Part shown: positions 1,731-57,625 of the stretch, one piece after another
How the letters are laid out: each line of letters begins with the position of its first letter
Position numbering within the stretch: position 1 is the stretch's first letter
Assembly (NCBI RefSeq): GCF_900176425.1
Contig: NZ_FWXS01000002.1
Coordinates: 124,001 to 188,000, forward strand
Direction: 5' to 3'
From: Moheibacter sediminis
GTDB taxonomy: Bacteria > Bacteroidota > Bacteroidia > Flavobacteriales > Weeksellaceae
Length of the DNA: 64,000 bases
The notes under the pieces: model-generated
The model's input: only the letters and a program-made list of their open reading frames with translations
Told to the model about the DNA's origin: nothing
The model's database searches: none
Made by a program: the position numbers and the translations under genes

Positions 1731-3580
1731 ATTGGTATCGATATATTCACTTTCAAGCCCTTATTGGGTTCGCTTACAAAGCTAATCGTACCTTTTATCT
1801 TTTCAATACGGTTTTCCGTAATGCGGATGCCATTTTTTGTATTTGGTTGATTTTCAATAAATCCTATCCCATTGTCTGTATAGAAAAAGTTTAATTTATT
1901 TTCATTGAATTCAAATTTGAGCACAACCAAACTGGCTTTGCTGTGTTTTTTCATATTGGTCAACAATTCCTGAATTATTTTGTAAAATTGAATTTTGGGT
2001 TCAGATTTTACATTAACCCAAGGATTTTCTTCAAAACCAATCAAAACCACATTTCTCTTATCACTTTTATAATTTGAAAATAAACCCAGCAATTCATCCG
2101 GATATTTTTCCCCAGTTTCAATCGGGCTGTTTTCACGGGAAATGTTTCTGGACAAATTATAGATTTCATCTAGTTTTTCCATTACTAAATTGTGTTTTTC
2201 AGTGTTAAATGAATCATTATTTATTTCAATGAAAGACATCAAACCATACACATTGTTGGCAATATCATCATGAACTTTTCCTGCAATTTTATTTTCAGTC
2301 GCATGGATTTCATCATTGATTCTCTTTTGATTTTTAATTCTTTGAATACGTTGAAACGCTATAAATCCGCCACAAATCAAAACAATTCCCGAAGCAAAAA
2401 GCACACCGTATAATTTTCTGCGTTCGATTTCCAATTGCTGTTCTGCAGTTTCGGCTCTCAGGATTTCATTTTCCTCACGATTTTTTTCGGAATCATATCT
2501 GATTTTGGCAAATTTATCTTTTGACTGGTTTCGGGTTTTTACAAGACTGTCGTTCAAAGACGCGTATTGGATTGCATATTTTTTTGAATTTTGTGGAGAT
2601 TCAAACGAAATCAATTTTTGCAAAGCTTCCAAACGGTCATCGGGACTTTTGAGCTCGGTCGCCAATCTGTACATTTCCCGCGAATAGAAAAGAGCAGAGG
2701 TTGGGTTTTTATCTGAAAAATATTCTGAAAGGTGTGCATTGCTTGCAATTTGACCCCATTTGTCATCATTTTCAATCCTGATTTCCAAGGCATTATTTAA
2801 TTCATTTTCTAAATTTAATTTTGGGTTTTGTTTCCATTTTGAATAAGCCAAATTGTCAATGACTTTTGATTTTAAATCTGGATTATTTAAAACAATCGAG
2901 TCGTTTAAGAGATTGGAAAGAATCCTAATTGAGTTTGTGTAATCCTTTAAATAAAGATGTGAAACGGATAAATTATTTAGATAAAGTGATTTACTGTATT
3001 TGTCATCGGTGGATTCTATTGATTTTTTTAGCCAATAAATGGATTCATCATGGTTATCTAAATTAGAAGAAGAAATGGCTAAGCAATTAAAAATGGAAGA
3101 TTTAAAAGGTTGATTTTCATAGTCTTTAATGAATTTCAACGCATTAATGGCTGTGATTTCGCTTCCGGAATAATCACCTTGATTGGATTGTATGATAGCC
3201 ATATTTCCTAAAACTTTTGAAGTGTTAATGCTATCATTTATTTCTAAGAAATGATTTTTTGAAATGCTGTAATAAAGGTATGCGGAATCTTCATTCTTTT
3301 TTATCAAGTTCAAATAACCTAATATCGAATTTACTTTTCCTGAATAATAATGATTATAGGTATTCTTGGATAATATTTGAAGTTGTGTAGCTGAAATTTC
3401 TGCGGAATCCATATCATTATTATCTATCAATAATATAGTTTTTTGCAAATAATTTTTCATTTGCAGAGAGTCTTTATTATTATTTTTATTCAAGATCGAA
3501 GCAGAGGATTCTTTGTCTGAACAAGAATAAATAAAATACAAAAAAATAAATAAAAAGAGGCAGGAAATGTTGAGTTTCAT
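1727..3580 (-). CDS. TPR-containing sensor histidine kinase (HisKA_3/NarL-LiaS type)
   Basis: The start at 3580 is preferred because it begins a proper signal peptide (MKLNISCLFLFIFL, then Cys in IYSCSD); six more codons are open upstream. The product is about 617 residues. In order it has the signal or lipoprotein-like segment, a large repeat region of TPR type that should be periplasmic (about 40-370), a coiled coil, a membrane helix (LYGVLFASGIVLICGGFIAF), and a dimerization helix with the phospho-acceptor His in KVHDDIANNVYGLM. It ends in an HATPase domain with an N-box (IIQELLTNMKKHSKA) and G-box (YTDNGIGF). Such kinases pair with LuxR-type regulators, as here. The signal is unknown. Confidence 0.88.
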   Translation of the reverse strand: MKLNISCLFLFIFLYFIYSCSDKESSASILNKNNNKDSLQMKNYLQKTILLIDNNDMDSAEISATQLQILSKNTYNHYYSGKVNSILGYLNLIKKNEDSAYLYYSISKNHFLEINDSINTSKVLGNMAIIQSNQGDYSGSEITAINALKFIKDYENQPFKSSIFNCLAISSSNLDNHDESIYWLKKSIESTDDKYSKSLYLNNLSVSHLYLKDYTNSIRILSNLLNDSIVLNNPDLKSKVIDNLAYSKWKQNPKLNLENELNNALEIRIENDDKWGQIASNAHLSEYFSDKNPTSALFYSREMYRLATELKSPDDRLEALQKLISFESPQNSKKYAIQYASLNDSLVKTRNQSKDKFAKIRYDSEKNREENEILRAETAEQQLEIERRKLYGVLFASGIVLICGGFIAFQRIQRIKNQKRINDEIHATENKIAGKVHDDIANNVYGLMSFIEINNDSFNTEKHNLVMEKLDEIYNLSRNISRENSPIETGEKYPDELLGLFSNYKSDKRNVVLIGFEENPWVNVKSEPKIQFYKIIQELLTNMKKHSKASLVVLKFEFNENKLNFFYTDNGIGFIENQPNTKNGIRITENRIEKIKGTISFVSEPNKGLKVNISIPI

Positions 3581-3625
3581 ACCTCTAAAATAAGACATTT
3601 GTCAATTAGTCCCAATAAAATTTAA

Positions 3626-3847
3626 TTAGGGCTTTATTGGATTTTGTCCTTGCTCCCCTCCTGTAGGCGGTCTTACTGTGCCTGTAGAATCAGAGGGAAT
3701 GCTGTCATTTTTATCGCCGCCTCTTTCGTAGTAGATATTATCTGTTTCGGCAGCCTTTGGTACGAAGTCAAATTCCTCATTGTCCAGACATGATGTTAAT
3801 ACAAAAAAAGATGCAATTATTCCCATCAATAAAATAGTTCTTTTCAT
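3626..3847 (-). CDS. Small lipoprotein upstream of the sensor kinase
   Basis: The 73-residue product has an N-terminal signal with a clear lipobox (FFVLTSCLDNEE), so the mature chain is about 53 residues, acidic and then rich in Gly, Pro and Ser (RPPTGGEQGQNP). No domain is recognised. It precedes the kinase by about 45 bp on the same strand and is probably cotranscribed with it. A role as an accessory sensor component is only an inference from that position. Small Gly/Pro-rich lipoproteins of this type recur next to TPR kinases in Bacteroidota as far as I recall. Confidence 0.7.
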   Translation of the reverse strand: MKRTILLMGIIASFFVLTSCLDNEEFDFVPKAAETDNIYYERGGDKNDSIPSDSTGTVRPPTGGEQGQNPIKP

Positions 3848-4214
3848 TTTTGATAAATTTTAATTTGTTTAAAAAGCGCATGGAATAACCAAGCACGGGC
3901 TTAGACAGAGCCTTGCGTTAATGAAAAATGAAGCGCTTCATTTTTGTTTGGGAAGTGAGCAAGCAGATAATTTTCAATTACTTCCCGGTGATTGTAGTTA
4001 TCTGACTTGTTTGGGTTTCAATCCATTTTGTACATTTGCTTTTAGCTAATTGCAAAGGCAAAAGTGAATCGTGAAGCAAAGAAACATCGGTAGCTGCCCA
4101 AGTTGTCGGACAAGTAGAAGACAAGTTGTAGACATTTCATGGACACGCTATAGTAAAGCGATTGCAGGCACTCATGTCTGAAATAAATTCTCTAAAAAAC
4201 TAAAATGAAAAATC
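3848..4214. other. 367-bp divergent intergenic region with palindrome and phased repeats
   Basis: This region separates the - strand lipoprotein/kinase operon from a + strand gene. It holds a perfect 22-bp palindrome at 3924-3945 (half-site AAAAATGAAGC). A + strand promoter lies at 4010-4038. GACAAGT heptamers occur at 4109-4115 and 4120-4126, with GACATTT at 4131-4137, all at exactly 11-bp spacing. No ORF in it looks coding. The leader of the + gene would be about 170 nt, long enough for a structured or regulated 5' UTR. Confidence 0.55.
4010..4038 (+). promoter_or_regulatory. Bacteroidota-type promoter for the 4215 gene
   Basis: TTTG at 4010-4013, a 17-bp spacer and TACATTTG at 4031-4038 match the -33/-7 consensus TTTG / TAnnTTTG. 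Transcription should start about 5 nt downstream, near 4043. Confidence 0.65.
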
Positions 4215-5001: not shown

Positions 5002-5784
5002 TTATTCTTTTGGTAAACTCATGTTGGTATATTCCAATACCAAATAGCTTAAAAAGTCCCATTTTACAGAGTTTTTCGGATATTTTTTTATAAATTCAGT
5101 ATTGTCTCCAAACAGGAAATCATAATTTTCCTCGAAATCATCTTTGTGCAGCCACATAATTTTGTCTCCTTTTTTTACATAGTAAGATTTTATCACGCCG
5201 CCACCAAACTGAACTCCTCCCATAGGACCTGTAGGAACACCGAACCCACCAGTTTCTTTTGCTCTCGGATCGTGATAAACAGAAATTAACTGACTGAATT
5301 CAGGATTTATAAGCTGCATCAAAAATTCTTTGTCATCTTTTTTATTTTTCAACGAAACTTTTTGATTCACAAAATAAATGCGGTCGTTGGTCACATTATT
5401 ATTCAAACTTTTGGTGCCCCAGTTTCTCATATTTGACATATATTTTGAAACTTTTATTGCTTTTTCCCATCCGCTTGCATATACATACATTTCTTTTACG
5501 TTTTCGGCATTGTAAGTATTTTCTTTTCCGCTGATGCTGTCTTTGATTGTAATTTCGTAAATCTGTCCTTTTTTTGTATCTATACCGTCACAGTAACCCA
5601 CATAAGTCTTTCCGTCTTTGGTAATGATTGTTGAAGTCTTTTTCTTGTCAGGTTTGGAAAAACCTTCATTGAAAAAATAGGTTTCCATTTTGTCTATTTC
5701 TTCCTTTGAATATTTGATTTTTTTTTGTGCAAAGCTCAATGTACAAAACATTAAAAGCGCAAAAGAGAGTAATTTAATTTTCAT
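5002..5784 (-). CDS. Secreted protein of unknown function
   Basis: The start at 5784 gives a classical signal peptide (MKIKLLSFALLMFCTLSFAQ); eight more codons are open upstream but would spoil it. The mature protein (about 240 residues) is rich in Lys and charged residues. It contains a short stretch resembling surface-adhesin style beta repeats (KTYVGYCDGIDTKKGQIYEITIKD) and a Gly-rich segment (GGFGVPTGPMGGVQFGGGV). I do not recognise a family and see no catalytic motif. It lies alone between a shared terminator and the S46 peptidase gene, which is 119 bp upstream on the same strand. Confidence 0.75.
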   Translation of the reverse strand: MKIKLLSFALLMFCTLSFAQKKIKYSKEEIDKMETYFFNEGFSKPDKKKTSTIITKDGKTYVGYCDGIDTKKGQIYEITIKDSISGKENTYNAENVKEMYVYASGWEKAIKVSKYMSNMRNWGTKSLNNNVTNDRIYFVNQKVSLKNKKDDKEFLMQLINPEFSQLISVYHDPRAKETGGFGVPTGPMGGVQFGGGVIKSYYVKKGDKIMWLHKDDFEENYDFLFGDNTEFIKKYPKNSVKWDFLSYLVLEYTNMSLPKE

Positions 5785-5903: not shown

Positions 5904-8051
5904 TTATTTCACGATTTTCATTTCATTTAGTAAATAGCCGGCACCAGCATATTTATCGATAATGAATAAAATGTAACGCGTATCGACCATTATGTTTCGG
6001 CATATTTCTGCATCGTAATGCAAATCACTCATCGTTCCTTCCCAAACACGGTCAAAATTTAATCCGATTAAATTCCCGTCTTTATCCAATGCCGGACTTC
6101 CGGAATTTCCGCCGGTTGTATGATTGGAAGCGATGAAATTCACAGGCATTTTAGCTTTATTATTTTTGCCCACACCATATATACCAAAATCTTTTTTCTT
6201 CTGTAATTCAATCAATTTCGGAGAAACATCAAACTCGTAATCCCCTGGCTTGTATTTTTCCATCACGCCATCCAAATAAGTAACCGCTTCGTATCTTGGC
6301 TTGTCTTCTGGTTTGTAACCATTTACTTTTCCGTAAGTTACACGCAAAGTTGAATTGGCATCCGGAAAGAATTTTTTATCAGAAAAAACTTCCAGTTGAG
6401 CTTTCATGTATTTTCTTTGCAGCTGATTGATTTGATTTGAAAGTGCGGTGTATTTTGGAGAAACTTTATCTTCATAAGCCTTTCCGATTGCAATAACCTG
6501 TTTCATCAAAGGATCATTTTCCAAAGCAGCTAAAAATATCTCATCATTTGACAAGGCTTGTTCAGCATTTTCGGTCAATTTTACTCCATTTACTTCTTTC
6601 TGTCCTGAAAGTATTGAATTGGCAAAGGTTGTAGCATCAATCTGAATAGTGCTTTCAGGTAAAAATTCTTTTGGAACATTTTTCTTGTACAAATCAATCA
6701 AAGCCAATGAAACTTCCTGGTCTAAATTAGCATCATAATCTTTGTAAAGTCCTTTCAAATAATTAATTAATCTTGTTTTCAATCCTGAATAATCAGCAGT
6801 TCCTTTTGCGTTCAATAATTGTTGTAATTGTAATGCAACGCGGAAAGTTTCAGAATTTCTGTAAATCGCTTCGTCGAAATAAATTTCTGCAAATTCATAT
6901 TTTTCTTTTCCTTGGTATAATTCTCCCAATTCTTTCAAAATATTTCCGTATTCAGCTTTTAGCTTCGGATCTTTTTCAATTCTTTGGGTAAATTCTTTTT
7001 CATAATCTTTTCTCAGATTTACTGCTCCCGATTTATTTAAGCCTAAACTTTCTCCCGTCCATTTTTTGTGGTAATTTGAAATTCTGGCATATTTTGAAGC
7101 ATATTTGATTCTCGTTGCGTCATCTTTTTTCATCTTATTCATCAAAATTTTTAAAGCTACATCGCGAATTCCGATTTGTGCAGGATTGATTGTCTGCAAC
7201 GTTTGTTCTAAAGCAACGGCAGGTAAATATTCATCTGTCGTTCCGGGAAAACCAAATACAAAAGTGAAATCGCCTTCTTTGACACCTTTGATGGAAACGG
7301 GAAGGAAGTGTTTGGGAGTGTAGGGAACATTATCTGTAGAATATTCAGCAGGTTTGTTGTTTTTATCGGAATAAATTCTGAAAAGCGCAAAATCTCCTGT
7401 ATGGCGTGGCCACGACCAGTTGTCAGTGTCAACTCCAAAATTCCCAATGCTGCTTGGGGGAGCACCTACCAATCGCACGTCACGGTAAGTTTCTGTGATG
7501 AATTGGTAATATTTATTTCCTTTGTAAAATGCACGGATAAGAACGTCTTGATAAGCCTCTTTCACTACATTTTTAGAAACAATTTCTATGTTTGATTTTA
7601 CGAATTCCTGTCTTTTTTCTTCAGTCATGTCGTCAGAAACTCCTTGCAAAATTTTATCGGTTACGTCTTTTATATCAACGATGAAAGTTGCGGTCAAGCC
7701 TTTGTTGGGTAATTCTTCGGAAGCATTCATCGCCCAGAAACCATTTTTCAAATAATCATTTTGAAGTGTAGAGTGTGACTGAATTTGTCCATAACCGCAA
7801 TGATGATTGGTAAGTAATAATCCTCTGGAAGAAATGACCTCAGACGTACAACCTCCGCCAAAATGCGCAATAGCGTCTTTGATGCTTGGAGAGTTTGGAT
7901 TGAAAATGTCTTGTGCATCGATTTTCATTCCCATTTTTTTCATTTCGGATTCGTTTAACTCCGTAGGAATCCACATTCCGCCGCCTTGCTGGGCATAAGT
8001 AAATCCTGAAATTAAAAGAATCAGTAATGTTTTTAATTTAAAAATTTTCAT
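5904..8051 (-). CDS. dpp11: S46 family dipeptidyl-peptidase, probably DPP11 (Asp/Glu-specific)
   Basis: The 715-residue protein has a signal peptide ending FTYAQQ, then the S46 peptidase fold. The catalytic His is H84 (LLLTNHHCGYGQ), the Asp is in HTGDFALFRIY and the nucleophile is S650 (GGNSGSPALD). The residue 18 past the Ser is R668 in FDRVWEG. In Porphyromonas gingivalis DPP11 the Ser and the P1-reading Arg are S655 and R673, so both are offset by five, while DPP7 has Gly there. This supports cleavage after Asp or Glu in oligopeptides rather than DPP7 specificity. It should act in the periplasm, feeding dipeptides to the cell. Its own gene is flanked by a terminator on the upstream side. 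Confidence 0.9.
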   Translation of the reverse strand: MKIFKLKTLLILLISGFTYAQQGGGMWIPTELNESEMKKMGMKIDAQDIFNPNSPSIKDAIAHFGGGCTSEVISSRGLLLTNHHCGYGQIQSHSTLQNDYLKNGFWAMNASEELPNKGLTATFIVDIKDVTDKILQGVSDDMTEEKRQEFVKSNIEIVSKNVVKEAYQDVLIRAFYKGNKYYQFITETYRDVRLVGAPPSSIGNFGVDTDNWSWPRHTGDFALFRIYSDKNNKPAEYSTDNVPYTPKHFLPVSIKGVKEGDFTFVFGFPGTTDEYLPAVALEQTLQTINPAQIGIRDVALKILMNKMKKDDATRIKYASKYARISNYHKKWTGESLGLNKSGAVNLRKDYEKEFTQRIEKDPKLKAEYGNILKELGELYQGKEKYEFAEIYFDEAIYRNSETFRVALQLQQLLNAKGTADYSGLKTRLINYLKGLYKDYDANLDQEVSLALIDLYKKNVPKEFLPESTIQIDATTFANSILSGQKEVNGVKLTENAEQALSNDEIFLAALENDPLMKQVIAIGKAYEDKVSPKYTALSNQINQLQRKYMKAQLEVFSDKKFFPDANSTLRVTYGKVNGYKPEDKPRYEAVTYLDGVMEKYKPGDYEFDVSPKLIELQKKKDFGIYGVGKNNKAKMPVNFIASNHTTGGNSGSPALDKDGNLIGLNFDRVWEGTMSDLHYDAEICRNIMVDTRYILFIIDKYAGAGYLLNEMKIVK

Positions 8052-28080: not shown

Positions 28081-28157
28081 TAGCTATTCCCGCTTTTCGT
28101 TGCAATCTTTTTTGTTTTCAAAAAAACAAAAAAGGATTTTCACTTCAATCGGGGCTA
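28081..28157. repeat. Nested palindromic intergenic element (REP/MITE-like)
   Basis: The outer ends TAGC...CCCG and CGGGGCTA are inverted. The inner arms CTTTTTTGTTTT (28107-28118) and AAAACAAAAAAG (28123-28134) form a perfect 12-bp stem with a 4-nt loop. The wording (CCCGCTTTTCGTTGCAATC, ATTTTCACTTCAATCGGGG) matches my memory of a short repeat dispersed in Flavobacteriia intergenic regions. Only one copy is in this window. Confidence 0.6.
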
Positions 28158-28196
28158 TGAAGGCATGAAATAAAAACTAAATAAGTAACAATATAA

Positions 28197-53823: not shown

Positions 53824-54255
53824 ATGGATATCGTAAAAGAAGCAGTAGTGGAGTACCGACGCACCGGAACAATCGCCAACCGTAACCGTTCCGTACTGAT
53901 GCAGTGGGTGAGAGGAGGCATTGATTTTGACATGTTTCAAGACATGGTTTCAAAATTTCCTTTTACTTCGGAAGAGTGGTCACAGTTTTTACATCTCTCA
54001 GAACGTACAATCCAGCGTTATAAAAAAGAAGAAAAAAACTTTGATTCGCTGCAGTCTGAGAAAATTCTTCAGATTAGTTTACTTTATCAACGTGGTGTTG
54101 AAATTTTCGGCGACAAAAACAATTTTAATTCTTGGTTGTCTGCCAACAATATAGCACTCGGCAACGTCAAGCCTAAAGAATTACTCGACAATGCATTTGG
54201 GATTGCTTTATTAGAAGAGGAATTGATGCGCATCGAACACGGTGTCTTGGCATGA
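53824..54255 (+). CDS. Xre/MbcA/ParS-type antitoxin of RES-Xre system
   Basis: The 143-residue protein has an N-terminal region that resembles the Xre HTH of these antitoxins (FTSEEWSQFLHLSERTIQRYKKE). The C-terminal toxin-binding domain (DUF2384) has RGVEIFGDKNNFNSWLSANNIALGNVKPKELLDNAFGI, the region that blocks the toxin NAD-binding site. Its stop overlaps the toxin start by 4 bp (ATGA), giving coupled translation. An inverted repeat upstream may be the operator. Confidence 0.9.
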   Translation: MDIVKEAVVEYRRTGTIANRNRSVLMQWVRGGIDFDMFQDMVSKFPFTSEEWSQFLHLSERTIQRYKKEEKNFDSLQSEKILQISLLYQRGVEIFGDKNNFNSWLSANNIALGNVKPKELLDNAFGIALLEEELMRIEHGVLA

Positions 54256-54710
54256 TAGTTTACCGATTGAGCAGGGCGAAATATTCTCATGATTTATCTG
54301 GAAAAGGAGCAGAATTAGCGGGAGGTCGTTGGAACAGTAAAGGGACGGCTCTGGTTTATGCCGGACAAACGATTGCGCTTTGTATGACGGAAGTTGCGGT
54401 GCACATCCCGTTTGGAATCATTCCTGTGGATTATGAATTAATTACCATAGAAATTCCTGAAAATGAAATCACCGATCTCAAAAAATCTCAGTTACCTGAA
54501 GATTGGAAATCGCTTCCCAATTCTTATTCCACCCAAACTTTTGGAGATGAATTTGTGAAGAACGCTAAACATTTAATCCTGAAAGTTCCTTCTGCGGTGG
54601 TTCAGGGTGAATTTAATTATTTGATTAATCCACTTCATCCTAAAATTAAAAAAGTTAAGATTAAGAAAACGGAATCCTTTTCTTTTGACCAAAGACTATT
54701 CGTGCGATAG
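54252..54710 (+). CDS. RES-domain toxin (NAD+ phosphorylase type)
   Basis: The 152-residue protein has the RES residues at the family spacing: R26 (GGRWNSKG), Y36 (LVYAGQT), E47 (MTEVAVH) and S114 (VPSAVVQGEFNYLINPLHP). Characterised RES toxins degrade NAD+ and stop growth unless bound by the Xre antitoxin. All key residues are present, so it is likely active. The pair is not in an obvious genomic island. Confidence 0.92.
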   Translation: MIVYRLSRAKYSHDLSGKGAELAGGRWNSKGTALVYAGQTIALCMTEVAVHIPFGIIPVDYELITIEIPENEITDLKKSQLPEDWKSLPNSYSTQTFGDEFVKNAKHLILKVPSAVVQGEFNYLINPLHPKIKKVKIKKTESFSFDQRLFVR

Positions 54711-54752: not shown

Positions 54753-56000
54753 ATGAAATCATTTATCACATACGATTCCCAGTCAGATTTTTCCATTCAT
54801 AACATTCCATTCGGCGTAGCTATTTTACAGGACGATTCTGTCGTTTGTGTAACACGGGTAGGAGATACGGTAATTGATTTGGCATACTTGTATGAAAAAG
54901 GATATTTTGACCAATTTGAATTAGAAGAAAATCTTTTCGAAGCTTTTGGATTAAATGAATTCATCTCTTTAGGCAAAGAAATTACCGTTCCTTTTCGTGA
55001 ATACCTTCAGCAATTGTTCTTAGAAGATTCTGAATTATCCAAAGACGAAGAAACCCAAACAGAAGCATTTCATTTTATAGATACTGTATTTATGCAGTTG
55101 CCTGTGCACATTCCTAATTATACAGATTTTTATAGCAGTATCGAACACGCAACCAATGTAGGGAAGATGTTCCGTGATCCTGAAAATGCTTTGCTTCCCA
55201 ACTGGCGACACATTCCGGTGGGTTACCACGGACGCGCTTCGTCAATTGTCGTTTCCGGTACGCCGATTCACCGACCATCGGGACAATCCAAACCCAAAGA
55301 TTCCGACGTTCCCGTTTTCGGACCGTCACAACGATTAGATTTTGAGCTAGAAGTAGCTTTTATTACTAATGCTTATACCGAATTGGGCGAAACCATTTCC
55401 ACTGCAGACGCGGAAGACAACATCTTCGGACTTGTACTTTTCAATGATTGGAGTGCACGCGACATCCAACAATGGGAATACGTACCTCTCGGACCCTTCT
55501 TGGCAAAGAATTTCGGTTCGTCCATTTCCCCTTGGATTGTGACTTTAGAAGCACTGGCACCTTTCCGCACAGCAGGTCCAAAACAAGAACCTGAAGTTTT
55601 CCCATATCTGCAATTCGAAGGGAATAAAAACATCGATCTCAAACTTCAAACCACCCTCAAACCTGAGTCAGGAGTAGAAAACGTAATTTGCAATAGCAAT
55701 TTCAAATACATGTATTGGAACATGAGCCAGCAACTCGCGCATCACACCATCAACGGTTGCAACATCGAAGTCGGCGACATGTACGCAAGTGGAACTATTA
55801 GCGGGCACACCGAAGATTCATTCGGTTCTATGCTCGAACTTACCTGGGGCGGGACCAAACCACTGACACTTTCAGATGGGACAGAACGTAAATTCATCAA
55901 CGACAACGACACTGTCATCATGCGCGGCTGGTGCGAAAACGGTGAAATTCGTGTTGGATTTGGCGAAGTAGAAGGCAAAATTCTCCCCGCAAAAGCATAA
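54753..56000 (+). CDS. fahA: Fumarylacetoacetase
   Basis: The 415-residue protein begins MKSFITYDSQSDFSIHNIPFG. It shows FAH features: FYSSIEHATNVGKMFR, GYHGRASSIVVSGTPIHRP (active-site His region), a metal-binding stretch with DFELEVAFIT and FNDWSARDIQQWEYVPLGPF. It hydrolyses fumarylacetoacetate in the last step of tyrosine/phenylalanine degradation. Other pathway genes are not nearby. The C-terminal half is less AT-rich than its neighbours. Confidence 0.93.
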   Translation: MKSFITYDSQSDFSIHNIPFGVAILQDDSVVCVTRVGDTVIDLAYLYEKGYFDQFELEENLFEAFGLNEFISLGKEITVPFREYLQQLFLEDSELSKDEETQTEAFHFIDTVFMQLPVHIPNYTDFYSSIEHATNVGKMFRDPENALLPNWRHIPVGYHGRASSIVVSGTPIHRPSGQSKPKDSDVPVFGPSQRLDFELEVAFITNAYTELGETISTADAEDNIFGLVLFNDWSARDIQQWEYVPLGPFLAKNFGSSISPWIVTLEALAPFRTAGPKQEPEVFPYLQFEGNKNIDLKLQTTLKPESGVENVICNSNFKYMYWNMSQQLAHHTINGCNIEVGDMYASGTISGHTEDSFGSMLELTWGGTKPLTLSDGTERKFINDNDTVIMRGWCENGEIRVGFGEVEGKILPAKA

Positions 56001-56026
56001 ATTCATACACAAAATTAAAAATTATT

Positions 56027-56144
56027 TGGGCACCCCGCCTGCGGAAAAAGCAGGGCGGGCTGTTCAGGTCTATACTTCGCTTCGGTCTTCCGTTTCACTC
56101 TACACCGTCTCGTTCCTCGGCTCCACTTCATATCCCTGGTGCAG
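56027..56144. repeat. GC-rich structured intergenic repeat
   Basis: The outer ends GCACC (56030-56034) and GGTGC (56138-56142) are inverted. Near the left end CCCGCCTGC (56034-56042) pairs with GCAGGGCGGG (56050-56059), with one bulge. The base composition is far from the AT-rich surroundings. The wording (TTGGGCACC, GGGCGGGCTGTTC, CTATACTTCGC, TATCCCT) resembles a family of intergenic elements I recall in Flavobacteriia; no function is known to me. Confidence 0.6.
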
Positions 56145-56285
56145 ATTTTATTTTATTATAAATTCTATAGACCAAAATATTGAATATCTCTGTTTTTTTA
56201 AATAATGCTCAATAGATTTCAATCTTTTTCTTCAATGACTTAATTTATGTGAATACATGTAATAACGTCAATTTGAAAAATAAAA

Positions 56286-56315
56286 AAGAGGTAAATCCCG
56301 AAAGAAAAACCTCTT
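56286..56315 (-). terminator. Terminator of the citrate synthase gene
   Basis: AAGAGGT (56286-56292) pairs with ACCTCTT (56309-56315). On the - strand a T-run follows. The loop sequence ATCCCGAAAGA is shared with the terminator at 28427-28452. Confidence 0.75.
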
Positions 56316-56338
56316 GTAAATTATGAAGATAAATTTAA

Positions 56339-57625
56339 TTATCTGTTTTCGATATCAATGTAGTCACGTTTTGGTGCACCTGTATAGATTTGTCTTGGAC
56401 GACCGATTGGTTCGTTGTTTTGACGCATTTCAATCCACTGCGCAATCCATCCCGGAAGTCTTCCTACTGCGAACATTACGGTGAACATTTCAGTTGGGAT
56501 TCCCAATGCTTTGTAAATGATCCCTGAATAGAAATCTACGTTTGGATACAATTTTCTTGATACGAAATATTCGTCTTCCAAAGCGGCCAATTCTAATTTT
56601 TTAGCAATTTCCAAAGCTTCGTCCTGGATTCCTAATTTCTCTAAAATCTGGTCTGCTGCTTTTTTAATGATGCGTGCACGCGGGTCGAAGTTTTTGTAAA
56701 CTCTGTGTCCGAAGCCCATCAAACGGAAATCATCATTTTTATCTTTTGCTTTGTCCACCCATTTCTGAACATCTCCGCCATCTTCTTTAATTTTTTCCAA
56801 CATTTCTACTACTTCCTGGTTGGCACCACCGTGAAGCGGCCCCCAAAGTGCAGAAACTCCGGCAGAAATCGAAGCGAACAATCCTGTGTGTGCTGAACCT
56901 ACCAAACGAACTGTAGAAGTCGAACAATTTTGTTCGTGGTCTGCGTGTAAGATCAATAATTTGTCCAAAGCATCAATCACAATCGGATCCATTTGTAAAT
57001 CTTTGTTTGGATTTTTGAACATCAATTGGTAGAAATTTTCTACGTAATCTAATTTCGAATCTGAATAGTTCAAAGGCAAACCTTTCACTTTGCGAAGTGT
57101 CCATGAGGCCAGTACTGCAAATTTACCAATCAAAGTCACTGCTGCGCGGTACATTTCTTCTTCTGATTTAGCATTCACTGCTTTTGGATTGAAAGCTGTC
57201 AAAGCACTTGTCAATGAAGACAAAACTCCCATTGGGTGGGCTGAGCTTGGGAAAGCCGCCAATATCTTTGCGATGTCTTCTGATACAAAATTATATTCGT
57301 TGATATCGTCTTTGAATTTCTGTAATTCTGTTGCAGTCGGTAATTCACCTTTCAATAAAAGGTACATCACTTCTACGAAGCTTGACTTTTCCGCCAATTG
57401 TTCGATTGAATAACCGCGGTACATCAACACACCTTTTTCACCATCTAAATAAGTGATTTCACTTTTGCATGATCCGGTATTTTTGTATCCTGGGTCTAAG
57501 GTGATAATTTCATCTGTTTGAGAACGGAAGTTTGAAAAATCTACATATTTCTCGTCCATCGTTCCGATTCCCATATTGAGGTCTAATTCTGCCCCGTTAT
57601 AAATAAATTTTGCTTTATCTGACAT
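56339..57625 (-). CDS. gltA: Citrate synthase
   Basis: The 428-residue enzyme is a type II bacterial citrate synthase. The active-site His are in LILHADHEQNCSTSTVR and MGFGHRVYKNFDPRA, and the catalytic Asp is in LYPNVDFYSGIIY. The N-terminal region (FIYNGAELDLNMGIGTMDEKYVDF) is typical of the hexameric type. It makes citrate from oxaloacetate and acetyl-CoA. Enolase lies 78 bp upstream on the same strand. Confidence 0.95.
   Translation of the reverse strand: MSDKAKFIYNGAELDLNMGIGTMDEKYVDFSNFRSQTDEIITLDPGYKNTGSCKSEITYLDGEKGVLMYRGYSIEQLAEKSSFVEVMYLLLKGELPTATELQKFKDDINEYNFVSEDIAKILAAFPSSAHPMGVLSSLTSALTAFNPKAVNAKSEEEMYRAAVTLIGKFAVLASWTLRKVKGLPLNYSDSKLDYVENFYQLMFKNPNKDLQMDPIVIDALDKLLILHADHEQNCSTSTVRLVGSAHTGLFASISAGVSALWGPLHGGANQEVVEMLEKIKEDGGDVQKWVDKAKDKNDDFRLMGFGHRVYKNFDPRARIIKKAADQILEKLGIQDEALEIAKKLELAALEDEYFVSRKLYPNVDFYSGIIYKALGIPTEMFTVMFAVGRLPGWIAQWIEMRQNNEPIGRPRQIYTGAPKRDYIDIENR

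Follow-up and report, generated by a model that had tools for sequence, protein, structure and literature searches.

The GC-rich stretch between fahA and gltA in Moheibacter sediminis is best explained as one copy of a non-autonomous, dispersed, structured DNA repeat superfamily of Flavobacteriales, in which the Rfam family Flavo-1 would be one internal module and the copy described here another, a reading held with slightly better than even confidence. That the element is real follows from its repetition together with covariation, its action at the DNA level is deduced from pair statistics, and its mobilisation is deduced from the scatter of the copies and nothing else. In the following, "the window" refers to the whole stretch of 64,000 nucleotides that was analysed, and the element is read in the orientation opposite to the strand of Rfam Flavo-1 (RF01705).

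In a window-wide composition count, positions 56027-56144 had a GC content of 0.585, against 0.115 at 56001-56026, 0.206 at 56145-56338 and 0.355 for the whole window, which bears out the excess over the intergenic surroundings claimed in an earlier note on this DNA; only 0.05% of all 118-base segments attain such a value. The stretch starts about 25 bases after the fahA stop codon and is intergenic, between convergent fahA and gltA, and covariance model R1 (see below) places the ends of the element slightly outside it, at 56024-56147. Just upstream of fahA, at 53824-54710 on the plus strand, a gene for an Xre/MbcA/ParS-type antitoxin is followed by one for a RES-domain protein, likely a toxin-antitoxin pair. 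The features referred to in the text are as follows.

28082-28160, minus strand: true match to Rfam Flavo-1 (82 bits, gathering cut-off 42)
54753-56000, plus strand: left neighbour fahA, fumarylacetoacetase
56024-56147, plus strand: whole element, an end-to-end match of covariance model R1 (102 bits)
56025-56029, plus strand: 5' edge TTTGG, from alignments
56030-56034, plus strand: terminal helix P1, 5' strand GCACC, from covariation
56035-56058, plus strand: P2, an optional hairpin, from the predicted fold and alignments
56057-56059, plus strand: P3, 5' strand GGG, from covariation
56084-56088, plus strand: helix 3, 5' strand GGTCT, pairing with 56102-56106
56102-56106, plus strand: helix 3, 3' strand ACACC, from alignment and covariation
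56107-56121, plus strand: helix 4, GTC at 56107-56109 with GGC at 56119-56121
56134-56136, plus strand: P3, 3' strand CCC, from alignment and covariation
56138-56142, plus strand: terminal helix P1, 3' strand GGTGC, from covariation
56339-57625, minus strand: right neighbour gltA, citrate synthase, convergent with fahA

The inverted ends GCACC/GGTGC and the internal hairpin that had been noticed earlier were both found again, the former as the two strands of P1 and the latter as CACCCCGCC/GGCGGGCTG, which is also present in the predicted fold. The core stem of P2 joins 56038-56042 to 56050-56054 and differs in sequence among copies; the hairpin lies just inside the left end and, judged by eye, only a minority of the 30 copies in its own genome carry it, the window copy among them. 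The 5' strand of P3 overlaps the longest form of P2, and the two may compete in the window copy. Helix 3 is paired at four of five positions with one mismatch, and helix 4, which has one T-G pair in the window copy, is the weakest of the four helices (84.6% of cells paired). Judged from the letters, the TTT of the 5' edge can pair with the A-rich 3' edge of many copies of the Flavo-1 module, leaving the GG unpaired. The folding energy is ordinary for the composition (z -0.72 on the plus strand and -0.34 on the minus strand), so the claim of structure must rest on comparison.

Searching the M. sediminis genome with blastn returned nine places including the window copy, and R1 was built from these nine copies, whose interior is called type A. 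R1 produced 30 full-length matches in the same 3.23-Mb genome (G000) at E<=0.1 and 25 at E<=0.01, with units of 82-151 nt that are spread over many contigs and form no single array. The earlier note had asked for such a genome-wide count and had named beforehand a single copy with none in relatives as the outcome that would tell against it; what was found is repetition at home and matches in congeners. Most of the 30 copies have common ends, approximately TTTGGGCGYC...CGGGCT on the left and ATCCCTGRCGCA on the right, enclosing several different interiors. Sorted by eye, some 14 have an interior like that of the window copy (type A), and the others carry short hairpins, a GCCGCC/GGCGGC stem or a CTATCCGCTRTATCTTTT...AAAAGGATGCCGCTTC sequence.

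The copies are scattered, nearly all intergenic and without preferred orientation to genes. Based on crude ORF calls rather than annotation, nine of the 30 own-genome copies lie between convergent genes, seven between divergent genes, seven in tandem sense, five in tandem antisense and two could not be determined, with an ORF call overlapping the element in six. The same kind of calls placed 87 copies of the Flavo-1 module as 28 sense, 21 antisense, 17 divergent, 12 convergent, three inside an ORF and six undetermined. For the replication strand, dnaA was placed in nine genomes and GC skew was sampled in four, where the skew was too weak for a strand bias to be read from the matches listed.

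Covariation was scored for the four helices, and the covarying pairs that had been proposed as a check were strong in three sets of copies. In the first nine copies the score was 0.288 against 0.128 for shuffled alignments, with none of 500 shuffles as high and all slid versions lower; the number of further pair types, one measure out of five, was unexceptional, being reached by 69 of the 500 shuffles and tied by one slid version. In 36 copies of mixed interiors, aligned with the structure as a guide and hence biased in its favour, the score was 0.270 against 0.094 (slid versions <=0.075), and in 16 copies of the Flavo-1 module it was 0.338 against 0.107, where the count of pair types is higher by one in a single slid version; no slid version exceeded 0.158 in any set. 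All five pairs of P1 changed on both sides across the 36 copies, the GGG/CCC of P3 is GTG/CAC, GCG/CGC or AGG/CCT elsewhere, and one pair in the internal loop of the Flavo-1 module uses all four Watson-Crick types. These comparisons show that the two ends form P1 by pairing with each other and enclose a folded unit, in which P3, internal hairpins and the optional P2 are found, and that the pairing is kept through two-sided Watson-Crick changes. In alignment A4 of the Flavo-1 module, G in column 16 always stands with G in column 107 (20/20) and A in column 16 is found equally with A and with G (29 each), a non-Watson-Crick relation outside the 25 strongest correlations.

A count restricted to P1 of the Flavo-1 module, with the left strand placed solely by the letters before P1, gave Watson-Crick agreement at all three variable pairs in 59 of 63 copies, compared with a shuffled mean of 13.2 and a maximum of 25 (2000 shuffles); the 63 come from 88 copies, of which 23 had a 5' end that the rule could not place and two were dropped as duplicates. 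Mutation rather than selection might also produce such agreement, through template switching by which hairpins are perfected. The very variable hairpin stems and the lack of a G-T excess would suit that explanation, yet P1 agrees this often across a loop of about 70 nt or more, and unpaired segments are conserved too, which makes it very improbable.

An Rfam search of window positions 55900-56350 gave no match, even at E<=10, so that by the gathering cut-off of the Flavo-1 model the element is not a member. At gathering cut-offs, 20 loci were searched: Flavo-1 (RF01705) matched in all 12 with the CTATCCGCT...AAAAGGAT interior, at the element and always on the strand opposite to its orientation, and in none of the eight with other interiors, three of which are type A. 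The ends are nevertheless held in common. Over the 36 copies, which comprise several interiors and one Flavo-1 match (L035, the same place as L175), Watson-Crick pairs filled 172 of 180 cells of P1 and 103 of 108 of P3, in an alignment made to follow the structure and so favouring it; with the same proviso, P1 and P3, by which the superfamily is proposed to be defined, are common to the interiors. Since the ends are common and the interior is unmatched by Rfam, the window element is a sister module of Flavo-1 in a larger superfamily, outside the coverage of Rfam, rather than a member as Rfam defines it. The link to a family in Flavobacteriia, with Flavo-1 as a candidate, thus proved useful: the element shares end helices and architecture with Flavo-1-bearing repeats, but the Flavo-1 model itself does not match it. 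The true Flavo-1 match at 28082-28160 has ends of the GGGGCTA kind, and the window element has GCGYC/GRCGC ends.

Flavo-1 itself is filed by Rfam (RF01705) as a gene of the sRNA class. Weinberg et al. 2010 grade it as a probable RNA that is probably not cis-regulatory (PMC2864571), another report counts it among the most abundant Rfam sRNA families and gives no function (PMC9029176), and the authors of a transcriptome study found no real clue to what it does (PMC9723704). Literature searches on Flavo-1 returned no paper that describes it as mobile DNA.

RNA helices tolerate G-U pairs and not A-C, and DNA helices tolerate neither and treat both alike. Among 1203 cells from 86 distinct copies of the Flavo-1 module, 1172 were Watson-Crick, seven G-T, eight A-C and 16 other; the varying pairs alone gave 828, 7, 8 and 16, and the terminal helix 185, 1, 2 and 1, respectively. 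A control with SRP RNA, for which 24 of 30 loci of the order were used (six had no anchor word), contained 374 Watson-Crick, 34 G-T, no A-C and no other cells (408 in total). This control is weaker than the raw 34:0 since a single invariant T-G pair accounts for 24 of the 34 G-T cells; its varying pairs alone gave 206, 10, 0 and 0. The G-T to A-C ratio of 10:0 for SRP RNA against 7:8 for the Flavo-1 module corresponds to a Fisher p of 0.008, with cells counted as if independent. The first nine copies gave 131 Watson-Crick, one G-T, three A-C and nine other cells. The 36-copy set (462 cells) had 423 Watson-Crick, five G-T, 17 A-C and 17 other cells, and this excess of A-C, five of which are the same GCG/CAC state, is in the direction expected of an RNA on Rfam's strand, where A-C becomes G-U, and counts against the DNA reading.

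That excess belongs to the case for a small non-coding RNA or RNA-processing element that would be read off the strand opposite to the element orientation, an explanation that would also be consistent with the conserved unpaired stretches, with the sRNA class of RF01705, with the grading by Weinberg et al. (PMC2864571) and with several 5' transcribed regions of F. psychrophilum that coincide with Flavo-1 matches (PMC9723704). It is opposed by the pair statistics of the Flavo-1 module and its control, by the absence of an orientation preference relative to genes, by copy numbers of up to 45 per genome among the matches listed, and by the F. psychrophilum transcriptome, in which Flavo-1 matches are indifferent to transcript strand (PMC9723704). 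We consider an RNA unlikely; of the "structured RNA" first suggested for this stretch, the structure stands and the RNA is disfavoured. If Flavo-1 and its sisters are structured DNA, the strand indifference is explained and the question becomes testable, and annotation should be warned against counting such matches as small RNAs.

Model R2 represents the Flavo-1 module, and its per-genome counts are lower bounds, as 33 candidates were scored per genome. It found at least nine copies in G000 and matches in 41 of 148 sampled Flavobacteriales genomes, from 16 of 63 genera. R1 at E<=0.01 matched six of 21 genomes, namely G000, two congeners, one other genus of the family and, weakly, two genomes of other families, where the matches are Flavo-1-module places. 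The congener matches comprise three places in G002 and two in G001, not all with the type-A interior. R1 matched none of 80 named loci, and in 0.8 Mb taken from four other genomes it matched once, marginally. To judge from these sequence matches, the module of the window copy appears so far mainly in its own genus.

The plasmid collection had no match for either the window's module or the Flavo-1 module, and the phages none for the window's module; exact scans of viral contigs located six stretches for the Flavo-1 core and none for the window's module. The contigs filed as viral L381, L382, L383, L384 and L385 carry matches of the Flavo-1 module, some as close pairs in the same orientation, and R2 scored one of these stretches strongly (L384, 74 bits) and several weakly. 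Two same-orientation Flavo-1-module elements also occur in L111 of Hyunsoonleella pacifica (5263-5372 and 5920-6110), where the first lies directly downstream of fahA, in that distant genome too. As halves 772 nt apart they had been considered as an autonomous version; they are two neighbouring elements.

The "non-autonomous mobile element" of the earlier note agrees with how many copies there are, with their scatter and with their indifference to orientation, but the searches brought up neither a transposase nor a precise empty site. The matching transposase that it suggested looking for did not appear: Y1_Tnp (PF01797) had no match at E<=0.001 in G000, which is 99.5% complete, and no element-flanked Y1 was found among 39 genes. 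The latter result is from 40 stretches (172 kb) around 39 Y1 genes of other genomes, chosen among the matches listed, in which R1 found nothing and R2 four matches at E<=1 and no flanking pair. Two of the four were strong and both more than 1 kb from the gene; the weaker two scored 22 bits about 1 kb away and 13 bits (E 0.92) about 80 bases away (L236).

These data bear on the possibility of a REP-type element whose RAYT (Y1 tyrosine) transposase has since been lost from G000. Folded ends, intergenic scatter and the very weak L236 match would fit such an origin, as would the fact that Y1_Tnp is present in 32 of the 41 genomes that carry the Flavo-1 module and in 11 of the 107 that lack it (148 genomes), an overlap that shared ancestry alone could explain. 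It has to contend with G000 and with nine Flavo-1-module genomes that lack Y1, three of them copy-rich (G118 with at least 31, G165 with at least 21 and G087 with at least 18), with the absence of flanking pairs, and with units of 82-151 nt instead of 20-40. GCGTC does occur in some copies as a paired strand of P1, which differs from the 20-40 bp and unpaired GTAG/CGTC tag that characterise REP. RAYT is not supported as the mobiliser here, and we regard this explanation as highly improbable. One Y1/RAYT-like gene locus, L215 (G136) 1816-3865, has four TCGCAATGA words nearby, which are possibly the repeat served by its transposase. In some Flavo-1-module elements the distal loop contains nested repeats of other kinds, the TCATTGCGA...TCGCAATGA and CTGAG...GTCGAA types (L155 at about 1402, L195 at about 1534-1577 and L192 at about 1540).

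The genes fahA and gltA adjoin here. Four congeners have them on separate contigs and next to other genes, and no fahA was matched in a fifth, so the element may lie at a rearrangement junction. No element was found by R1 or R2 at E<=1 at the ten congeneric loci around fahA or gltA. Comparison of flanks among loci revealed orthologous occupied sites and no clean empty site, with L299/L347 as one possible case, and neither comparison yielded an empty site with exact borders, a duplicated target or a product of excision. The flanks of several copies match between species, and copies can be old. In the type-A orthologous pair L013 (G000) and L120 (G002), helix 4 has gone from G-C to A-T, and helix 3 shows a single two-sided change as well as a new apical stem. 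Eleven orthologous pairs of the Flavo-1 module showed five two-sided Watson-Crick changes and five other changes at modelled pairs, although in some of them the elements are so different that separate insertion is possible.

Pairing kept through change at orthologous sites is as compatible with a host function, or with a mutational process that restores pairing, as it is with transposition. It speaks for a chromosomal structure site used by the host, bound by a nucleoid, repair or topology protein, which spread long ago and whose fold is under selection. Both L013/L120 and the 11 pairs agree with such a site; the scattered positions, the ten congeneric fahA or gltA loci without an element match and the several interiors within one genome do not, and we judge it improbable.

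For the structured DNA repeat preferred here, the pairing would act in DNA, in an exposed single strand or in a cruciform extruded from the duplex. A trans-acting enzyme would recognise the folded end structure and either copy the unit or move it, much as in the economy of REP or ERIC elements, and copies would then persist for long periods. More specifically, and only tentatively, with rather less than even confidence, Flavo-1 and its sister modules may form one modular single-stranded-DNA or cruciform superfamily in Flavobacteriia, whose closing helix is recognised by a putative non-Y1 mobilising enzyme and whose interiors are exchanged within common ends.

Several known systems resemble the element in part. 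The ERIC/IRU elements of enterobacteria are intergenic units of about 127 bp with paired stems and no known transposase; by their description they are alike in size, intergenic place and paired stems, and their hosts belong to a different phylum. MITEs derived from DDE insertion sequences are non-autonomous and have inverted ends, as does the window element, whose ends are however only 5 bp, vary among copies with pairing kept and enclose an elaborate conserved interior. An integron attC site, which would call for a GTTRRRY core and an integron integrase, was also considered; the 30 copies are dispersed over many contigs instead of standing in a single array. REP/BIME sequences with RAYT (GTAG and CGTC super-families) are likewise short, intergenic, folding, multicopy and non-coding, and the window element differs in being a larger multi-helix unit, with no flanked Y1 and no Y1 in G000 (PMC3733652). 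The Flavo-1 (RF01705) copies share with it the P1 closing helix, the P3 GGG/CCC, the optional side hairpin and dispersal in Flavobacteriales, and differ in the interior.
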